Of a stretch of DNA of 33,670 bases, positions 1,824 through 2,960 are shown in pieces. The stretch's first letter is position 1, and each line of letters begins with the position of its first letter. The DNA comes from a virus: IMG/VR virus record IMGVR_UViG_3300044948_000258, positions 1-33,670 of that record, one strand, 5' to 3'. The notes under the pieces are model-generated. The model ran no database searches. It saw only the letters and a program-made list of their open reading frames with translations, and had not been told where the DNA came from. A program made the translations under genes and the position numbers.

Positions 1824-2048
1824 TCAGCCTCGCATCCAATGGTGCCTGATGCCCCTTGCCCAGCCAGCGGCATAGACAAAGCTCAGGGCGAAGATTCCCC
1901 ACTGGCCGGCCTTGAAGGTGGCGAACATCCAGAATGGTTGCGCGATCAGGCCGATGATGCAGGCCCATCGCCGCCAGTTTTCGCGCGGGTCGTTGGCGAG
2001 CCAGATGGAGGACATGCCGCACATGGCGATGATGATTTGCTCCGTCAT
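1824..2048 (-). CDS. Small phage membrane protein
   Basis: A 74-residue protein starting MTEQIIIAMCGMSSIWLAND. The ATG at 2048 forms an ATGA overlap with the stop of the methyltransferase, which decides this start over an in-frame upstream one at 2099. Two hydrophobic segments are visible, about residues 25-42 (WACIIGLIAQPFWMFATF) and 46-62 (WGIFALSFVYAAGWARG), separated by a short polar turn, so a hairpin in the inner membrane is likely. I recall small phage proteins with the same W-rich layout beside methyltransferase or HNH genes, without an assigned function. Confidence 0.75.
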   Translation of the reverse strand: MTEQIIIAMCGMSSIWLANDPRENWRRWACIIGLIAQPFWMFATFKAGQWGIFALSFVYAAGWARGIRHHWMRG

Positions 2049-2776
2049 GTCGCGCTCATCAAAGTGCGCACTGCTCTTGCTGCCACTGCCGGAACCCATC
2101 CATTGCCAGTGGCTTTGAGTCCGTCCATCCCTCGGGCCACATCATCAGGATTTCTTGGCATCGAGGCGTAGTCATCCGCTGGTAGAGTCGCATCAATTGC
2201 TCTTGCAAATTGCCGTCTGCGTGATTCTTCCGTATCAATTTGAATGGGTTTCTGAATGTCCAAGCCTTCCAGCTTTGCGCCGTTGGGGTAAGCAACCATG
2301 AAAATCCGGGCTCGATGATGGGCCGCTCCAATGCTGGAAGCTCTGAACACTCCCCATTTCGCATCCATCCCCATTTTGGCCAGGTCTCCGAGAACTCTGC
2401 CAAGCCCCCGAGAAGTGAGCATTGGCGAGTTTTCCAGGAGAACGAAACGCGGTCGAACCTCGCGAATGATGCGGGCCATGTCCAACCAAAGGCCGGATCG
2501 TTCGCCGTCGATTCCCGCTCCTGATCCACATTGGCTAATGTCTTGGCAGGGAAAGCCTCCGGTAACGACATCAACGCTGCCGCGCCATGGGGTTCCATGG
2601 AAGGTGCGCACGTCATCCCAGATCGGGAATCGCTCAAGCGCTCCGTCACGCTGCCTGTCAAGCAGGATGCTTCTGGCTCCGGCATCAAGTTCAACAGCAC
2701 AGACGGTGCGCCATCCAAGCAGTTGTGCGGCCAGGATGCTTCCCCCCCCCCCAGCAAAAAGTGCCAACTCATTCAT
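2045..2776 (-). CDS. dcm: DNA cytosine-C5 methyltransferase
   Basis: A 243-residue enzyme that would transfer methyl groups from S-adenosylmethionine to cytosine C5 in phage or host DNA, probably to protect against restriction. Motif I is FAGGGGS (7-13), motif IV is GGFPCQDIS with catalytic C77, motif VI is ENS (115-117), motif VIII is RARIF (155-159), and a GNGWVP motif lies near the C-terminus. It is short for the family, with little room for a target-recognition domain, as in other phage copies. Start is ATG 2776 behind GGGGAAG. Motif I is encoded by an 11-G run (2742-2752 on the plus strand). A second frame (2059-2772) covers nearly the whole gene. Its 3' end overlaps the small membrane gene (ATGA). 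Confidence 0.93.
   Translation of the reverse strand: MNELALFAGGGGSILAAQLLGWRTVCAVELDAGARSILLDRQRDGALERFPIWDDVRTFHGTPWRGSVDVVTGGFPCQDISQCGSGAGIDGERSGLWLDMARIIREVRPRFVLLENSPMLTSRGLGRVLGDLAKMGMDAKWGVFRASSIGAAHHRARIFMVAYPNGAKLEGLDIQKPIQIDTEESRRRQFARAIDATLPADDYASMPRNPDDVARGMDGLKATGNGWVPAVAARAVRTLMSAT
2059..2772 (-). CDS. Protein from a second frame nested in dcm
   Basis: A 237-codon frame on the same strand as dcm, shifted by one base. It begins at an ATG four bases after the dcm start (ATGAATG) and ends 14 bases before the dcm stop. Its product starts MSWHFLLGGGEAS and contains FSWKTRQCSLLGGLAEFSET (about 111-130), WPKWGWMRNGECSELP, LLTPTAQSWKAW, and near the C-terminus WPEGWTDSKPL. I recognise this succession (W-K-T-x-Q-C-S-L, E-F-S-E-T-W-P, M-R-N-G, W-P-x-G-W-T-D) from database proteins of phages, usually called hypothetical or methylase-related, which I believe derive from the same overlapping frame of phage dcm genes. 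No enzyme fold is evident. It could still be a non-expressed shadow kept by constraint on dcm. Confidence 0.5.
   Translation of the reverse strand: MSWHFLLGGGEASWPHNCLDGAPSVLLNLMPEPEASCLTGSVTERLSDSRSGMTCAPSMEPHGAAALMSLPEAFPAKTLANVDQERESTANDPAFGWTWPASFARFDRVSFSWKTRQCSLLGGLAEFSETWPKWGWMRNGECSELPALERPIIEPGFSWLLTPTAQSWKAWTFRNPFKLIRKNHADGNLQEQLMRLYQRMTTPRCQEILMMWPEGWTDSKPLAMDGFRQWQQEQCAL
2742..2752 (-). repeat. Homopolymer G11 in dcm motif I
   Basis: Eleven consecutive C on the plus strand are eleven G in the coding sense. They encode the Gly run of motif I (codons GGG GGG GGG GGA). Loss of one G would join the dcm start to the nested frame (FAGGGEAS). Gain of one G would join the nested start to the methyltransferase frame. 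Runs of this length inside an early codon region are typical contingency loci. A sequencing miscount is possible, but eleven is the length that keeps the catalytic frame intact. Confidence 0.9.
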
Positions 2777-2960
2777 CTTCCCCACCAAATACCCGTTTCT
2801 CGATTTCGGACAGAACTTTCTCCTGCTTTTCAGTCAGTACGAATCGATTGGAAATGCTTGGTAGAAATTGGTGCTTCTCCCAAGAATTAAGATCGCTGCC
2901 GACTGCTTCTGACAGGATGCGATCAACGCGAGTGCGGGGCTCGGTTCTGGTATCAGTCAT
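2769..2960 (-). CDS. Small phage protein of unknown function
   Basis: A 63-residue charged protein beginning MTDTRTEPRTRVDRILSEAV, with a C-terminal half LTEKQEKVLSEIEKRVFGG that I have seen in other small phage proteins encoded near methyltransferases and zinc-ribbon proteins. No Cys, no membrane segment; predicted mostly helical by eye. ATG 2960 forms an ATGA overlap with the upstream gene, and its end overlaps the dcm start by 8 bp. It is therefore firmly part of the operon, but I cannot assign a function. Confidence 0.7.
   Translation of the reverse strand: MTDTRTEPRTRVDRILSEAVGSDLNSWEKHQFLPSISNRFVLTEKQEKVLSEIEKRVFGGEDE

Follow-up and report, generated by a model that had tools for sequence, protein, structure and literature searches.

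A second reading frame inside a phage dcm gene probably encodes the missing half of a split C5-cytosine methyltransferase

Two long reading frames on the same strand of a phage DNA, offset by one base, share nearly the same nucleotides: a dcm gene and a second frame lying wholly within it. Is the second frame a gene at all, and if so, what does its product do beside a DNA methyltransferase? The stretch analysed, here called the window, is a virus record of 33,670 bases, a phage or prophage contig on which an integrase, SSB and a terminase are encoded. An initial annotation had placed the two frames as follows, with their starts within ATGAATG and their stop codons 14 bases apart, and the sequence confirms all of this. 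The third frame across the dcm stretch contains 14 stops.

2776-2045, minus strand: dcm frame, ATG at 2776, 243 amino acids, putative alpha subunit of a C5-cytosine methyltransferase
2772-2059, minus strand: nested frame, +1 relative to dcm, ATG at 2772, 237 amino acids, putative beta subunit

The dcm product has the features of the catalytic part of a C5 enzyme. It matches PF00145 (E 1.1e-30), over positions 4-169 of 324 only, and phrog_363 (E 1e-59), and its fold matches those of M.HaeIII and M.HhaI (E ~5e-11). C5-methyltransferase motifs I-VIII and X are present, including those that make up the catalytic core (I, IV with PCQ, VI with ENS, and VIII).

2543..2551, minus strand: dcm motif IV PCQ with catalytic cysteine C77, invariant in the dcm alignment
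2090..2107, minus strand: dcm motif X (GNGWVP), residues 224-229, conserved in the dcm alignment

Neither a recognition domain nor motif IX was found in the dcm chain, where the PF00145 match ends at 169. Only about 45 poorly conserved residues separate motifs VIII and X, and the chain has no room for either of these parts. In IPP64, a monomeric phage enzyme used as control, PF00145 was matched over 2-322.

Taken by itself, the window gene gives weak evidence for a second gene. When dcm codons were shuffled synonymously within the gene, the +1 frame was still open in 712 of 20,000 shuffles (3.6%); when the codon usage was that of other window genes, this fell to 64 of 20,000 (0.3%). The open frame is mildly unusual, and chance could nearly explain it. 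The earlier statement that a chance frame is unlikely is weakly supported by this gene alone; comparison with relatives bears it out far more strongly. Among approximately 75 homologues of the window's type (viral contigs retrieved by dcm protein search, 50-87% identical) no internal +1 stops were found, so that the search for scattered stops in close homologues left the nested frame standing; their third frame carries 7-21 stops. In 25 diverse clusters (<62% amino acid identity), which include phages of Stenotrophomonas, Streptomyces, Bacteroides, Porphyromonas, Klebsiella, Salmonella, Microcystis and Sulfitobacter, there are 20 +1 stops versus 128 expected from shuffles (sum of log10 P about -57, with each P floored at 0.001). 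The length of dcm varies among relatives from 234 to 337 codons, and that of the nested frame shifts in step. In more distant clusters the nested frame becomes open only at a later point in dcm; nesting over the full length, with a shared start, is a property of the MNELALFA clade.

A search with the nested profile returned 160 loci, half of them in bacterial genomes and half in viral contigs. At all 160 dcm overlaps in the -1 frame, at 150 dcm contains over 90% of the nested footprint, and no free-standing nested protein was found among them. The plasmid search gave four relatives only. In the record of Pseudomonas phage VB_PaD_phPA-G (L114, 1497-2229) the nested frame is annotated as a "hypothetical protein" and the dcm frame is omitted, while the other records examined mostly list the dcm frame. 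A prophage of E. coli PT62 (L291, 1-3238) carries two genes for DNA cytosine methyltransferases with about 2 kb between them; the second has DNA similarity to the overlapping type and is annotated in one frame alone.

Synonymous sites of dcm, proposed at the outset as a place to look for excess constraint, do evolve slowly. Four-fold synonymous divergence is lower in dcm than in flanking genes both at 70-80% amino acid identity (0.31 versus 0.51) and at 80-92% (0.24 versus 0.35), and the same is seen within locus pairs, for example L015/L052 (0.14 versus 0.43). Over dcm codons 201-220, identity at positions 1, 2 and 3 is 0.485, 0.669 and 0.670, respectively; the third position is conserved like the second and above the first, as expected where the nested frame is the main coding frame. 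Three dcm codons that are invariant and four-fold degenerate, G136, A214 and A235, have a fixed third base (30 of 30 for G136). The nested-frame profile scores above synonymous shuffles, beyond the shadow cast by dcm conservation, at z 4-12, values to be read knowing that shared ancestry lifts the third frame too and that the monomeric control reaches z 4. This shadow amounts to roughly half of the nested-frame score in most shuffles. In column-identity shuffles the third frame likewise stood above the shuffles, and this comparison was therefore kept out of the proof. Because of the shadow and of the third frame, identity tests alone are not decisive. It is the absence of stops, the slow synonymous sites of dcm, the codon-position pattern and the co-occurrence at 160 of 160 loci that argue for selection on the nested frame as a protein. 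That it is a selected coding frame is, on these sequence comparisons, close to certain, and the original proposal of a full-length overprinted frame, with the second frame under purifying selection, gains support from stops, codon positions and synonymous divergence alike.

The region around the two starts suggests how both frames might be read.

2769..2960, minus strand: upstream ORF of 63 amino acids, its TGA stop overlapping the nested ATG as ATGA
2780..2786, minus strand: Shine-Dalgarno-like GGTGGGG in the sequence, which could serve both starts
2769..2776, minus strand: start octamer ATGAATGA, with the dcm ATG at 2776-2774 and the nested ATG at 2772-2770

In the nested frame a TGA stands immediately 5' of the nested ATG. 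Nearly all homologues have NTGAATGA at the start, and many have a purine-rich stretch at the position matching GGTGGGG. As the pattern of the nested-profile search partly selects the nested ATG, start conservation was scored on loci derived from the dcm query. Codon 2 of dcm, which creates the nested ATG when it is AAT, is AAT in 63 of these 63 loci; AAC is also allowed at this codon, and among the other Asn codons of the dcm genes it is used in 54%. About ten loci of L131-L290 start with TTAAATGA or CTAAATGA, where the nested ATG is retained and dcm is without a start codon at the usual place. The upstream ORF has no match in Pfam. Its TGA overlapping the nested ATG, together with GGTGGGG before both starts, makes co-initiation or termination-reinitiation plausible, and the upstream ORF and the nested frame are possibly coupled in translation.

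Relatives of the nested product indicate what it may be. It matches phrog_1008, "DNA methyltransferase" (E 4e-15), and searches bore out the initial statement that its motif run (W-K-T-x-Q / S-E-T-W-P-x-W-G / W-P-x-G-W-T) occurs in many phage proteins. The following parts are distinguished in it.

2353..2436, minus strand: conserved block, residues 113-140 (WKTRQCSLLGGLAEFSETWPKWGWMRNG), from the nested-family alignment, overlapping dcm motifs VI-VIII
2194..2304, minus strand: variable region (LLTPTAQSWKAWTF...), putative target recognition domain, from alignments of both frames
2119..2172, minus strand: motif IX (TTPRCQEILMMWPEGWTD), residues 201-218, from a profile match to the IX-X block (E 9.7e-8) and from codon-position reversal

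The dcm frame stops after motif VIII in four actinophages, Streptomyces phages Vash and Samy and mycobacteriophages Shaka and Catdawg, and the nested-frame ORF, there a separate "DNA methylase", extends through motifs IX and X. In these extended ORFs, PTP-type repeats or a spacer are followed by motif IX, as a block resembling KLSPEFAEWMMGLEPGWV, and by motif X (IGNGVVPHQA). A single methyltransferase model, phrog_116, is matched in consecutive parts, at 212-390 by the window dcm and at 409-499 by the nested-frame ORFs of Vash and Samy. Rhodococcus phage ReT1v-2 has its IX-X block in one frame with the catalytic domain, and this block shares 53% identity with the nested-frame C terminus of Shaka (E 1e-26). 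The window's nested family aligns to this block at the NPxxxEWLMGWPxGWT motif. By these alignments the nested frame carries motif IX and lies where the recognition domain belongs; its variable region, opposite which the dcm frame is poorly conserved, would have the recognition role. AlphaFold modelled the nested protein poorly (pLDDT 46), so that the putative recognition domain gains no backing from a fold. Profile searches of the PDB with the nested family reached no methyltransferase, and neither that family nor two actinophage members nor the IX-X block found anything relevant there.

The locus of ReT1v-2 (L130, 1447-2646) has IX-X in the dcm frame and a PTP-repeat region in the nested frame, which means that the IX-X block switches frame between relatives. 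Repeated PTP-type motifs are also present in nested-frame ORFs of L108, L111 and L126. By analogy with multispecific Bacillus phage methylases, the PTP-type repeats of actinophages are perhaps tandem recognition domains.

Could the two frames be parts of one chain? Programmed frameshifting or slippage, of ribosome or polymerase, would join dcm into the nested frame, and mostly back again for motif X. Frame-swapped relatives speak for such joining: in loci L009, L010, L012 and L100 the G tract at codons 84-86 is 9 long, one fewer than the 10 of close relatives, and the 9-G tract swaps the frames and fuses alpha 1-85 to beta 83-237 (L010 and L084 are 97-99% identical). In mycobacteriophage Llama (L122, 2001-2757) there is a swap between the two frames mid-gene; several related phages among the matches likewise have two short ORFs annotated as DNA methylase. 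The window, too, has a G run near the dcm start.

2742..2752, minus strand: run of 11 G in the sequence, dcm codons 9-12 (motif I glycines), the sole G or C run of at least 8 within the window

Poly-G tracts of 8-11 occur here and in L083, L084, L094, L079, L009, L010, L012 and L100. In the window's clade 10 of 16 members have a G run of at least 8, versus a shuffle mean of 1.75; these runs sit at codons 8-12 or 83-86, and the flanks, 72 kb in all, hold two such runs. The differences in length possibly represent real variation, a programmed slippage or phase-variation site, or assembly error. A frameshift was also among the options left open by the authors of PMC4351075. Yet the window and most members would require two shifts in opposite directions, no shift site common to the family was found (G runs of at least 8 are present in 12 of 80 members), and under frameshifting there would be no need for the nested ATG at +4 or for an open frame over dcm codons 1-160, both of which are conserved. 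We judge this explanation improbable. We give slightly less credence still to an independent overprinted accessory protein (anti-restriction protein, regulator or toxin) that merely shares its DNA with dcm. It would suit the long N-terminal half of the nested product, as this first half of the protein has no known counterpart in monomeric methyltransferases, and a possible parallel is M.BatI, an orphan C5 enzyme encoded by a prophage: its recognition domain is unusually short, and its toxicity does not stem from methylation (PMC8936443). An independent protein is, however, hard to reconcile with a dcm frame at each of the 160 loci, with motif IX (and X in actinophages) in the nested frame, exactly the parts that dcm is missing, and with the matches to phrog_1008 and phrog_116. 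The initial idea of an anti-restriction or regulatory partner is thereby kept in part: a partner, as a subunit of the same enzyme, agrees with the evidence, and a protein independent of it fits less well, given phrog_1008, motif IX and the missing C-terminal half of dcm. Very unlikely, finally, is an untranslated frame held open by the amino-acid and codon composition of dcm. The shuffles of the window gene alone leave room for it, and dcm conservation by itself casts a strong shadow in the nested frame; against it stand the joint absence of stops over the 25 clusters, the codon-position reversal with the fixed four-fold third bases, the low synonymous divergence of dcm, the start at +4 and the separate nested-frame ORFs of actinophages.

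We thus consider it probable that the locus is a split C5-cytosine methyltransferase whose two subunits are encoded on one stretch of DNA in different frames. On sequence grounds the nested product would not be an unrelated gene but most likely the enzyme's own missing DNA-recognition half. In the proposed scheme, the dcm frame would give alpha, with AdoMet binding, the catalytic cysteine and motifs I-VIII and X, and the +1 frame would give beta, with the recognition region and motif IX. Ribosomes from one Shine-Dalgarno sequence, or freed by termination on the upstream gene, would start at either ATG, and the two ATGs four bases apart would thereby let a single message supply alpha as well as beta. 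The active enzyme would form by assembly of the two, and it would methylate the phage DNA and so protect it against host restriction. Translation of beta, formation of the heterodimer and the anti-restriction purpose are what we infer from the locus. C5 methyltransferases split between motif VIII and the recognition domain, naturally or artificially, are known to complement (PMC3404938, PMC5944983). With less assurance, we also lean towards a fuller picture, in which catalytic core and recognition half are obligate interacting subunits encoded on nearly the same nucleotides and co-initiated at ATGAATG, in an old family found in phages of several bacterial phyla; in some lineages poly-G tracts of varying length might toggle or fuse the frames and thereby switch the methylase. 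If this is true, both halves of a heterodimeric enzyme are placed on one DNA stretch, an extreme overprinting whose function is obvious. As a rule, annotation today retains one of the two frames, and the entries of many phage methylases would consequently lack the recognition half.

Neither split C5 methyltransferases nor overlapping arrangements are new in themselves. M.EcoHK31I (YGGCCR) also has its beta gene in another frame within alpha. Its large subunit contains motifs I-VIII and X, and IX is in the smaller polypeptide (PMC3404938), a division found here as well (I-VIII and X in dcm, IX in the nested frame, E 9.7e-8); the likeness is one of motif layout. The recognition domain of M.EcoHK31I is assigned to the large subunit, unlike in our reading of the window, which gives it to beta. 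M.AquI is, as we propose for the window, a C5 enzyme naturally in two chains (PMC3404938); its split falls within the recognition region and leaves IX-X to the small subunit, and the part of PMC3404938 on which this comparison draws does not report nesting. The ShiLan element resembles the window in having a second frame hidden in a phage DNA methylase (PMC11855218). It is, however, a mobile insertion with an HNH homing endonuclease in the other shifted frame, whereas the second frame of the window would be part of the methylase itself.

Full nesting with co-initiation, codon-level double selection and the breadth of the family were not found in the open-access literature searched, and the present case is absent from that on overlapping phage genes apart from PMC4351075. 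The system described there, Corndog gp7/gp6 (gp6/gp5 in Catdawg, a member of the Corndog cluster), is like the window in combining a catalytic half with a C-terminal methylase half in an overlapping frame (PMC4351075), and our nested profile matches frame 0 of Catdawg (E 1.2e-21) and our dcm profile its frame 2. The last 53 residues of Corndog gp6 match C-terminal helices of M.HaeIII, the pair was not detected by mass spectrometry, and the coding potential of a second frame within the first Corndog gene was noted in 2015 (PMC4351075). The overlap annotated in Catdawg spans about 200 bases, and the second ORF there passes beyond the first with IX and X; in the window, by contrast, dcm encloses the whole of the second frame, which begins 4 bases after the dcm start, and motif X remains with dcm. 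For phage methylases of the Corndog gp7/gp6 kind, the 2015 account did not decide between two products, with the start of the second to be placed, and a frameshift that joins them (PMC4351075); the clade of the window, a compact locus in which an ATG is conserved 4 bases downstream of the first, points to the place where the second begins.
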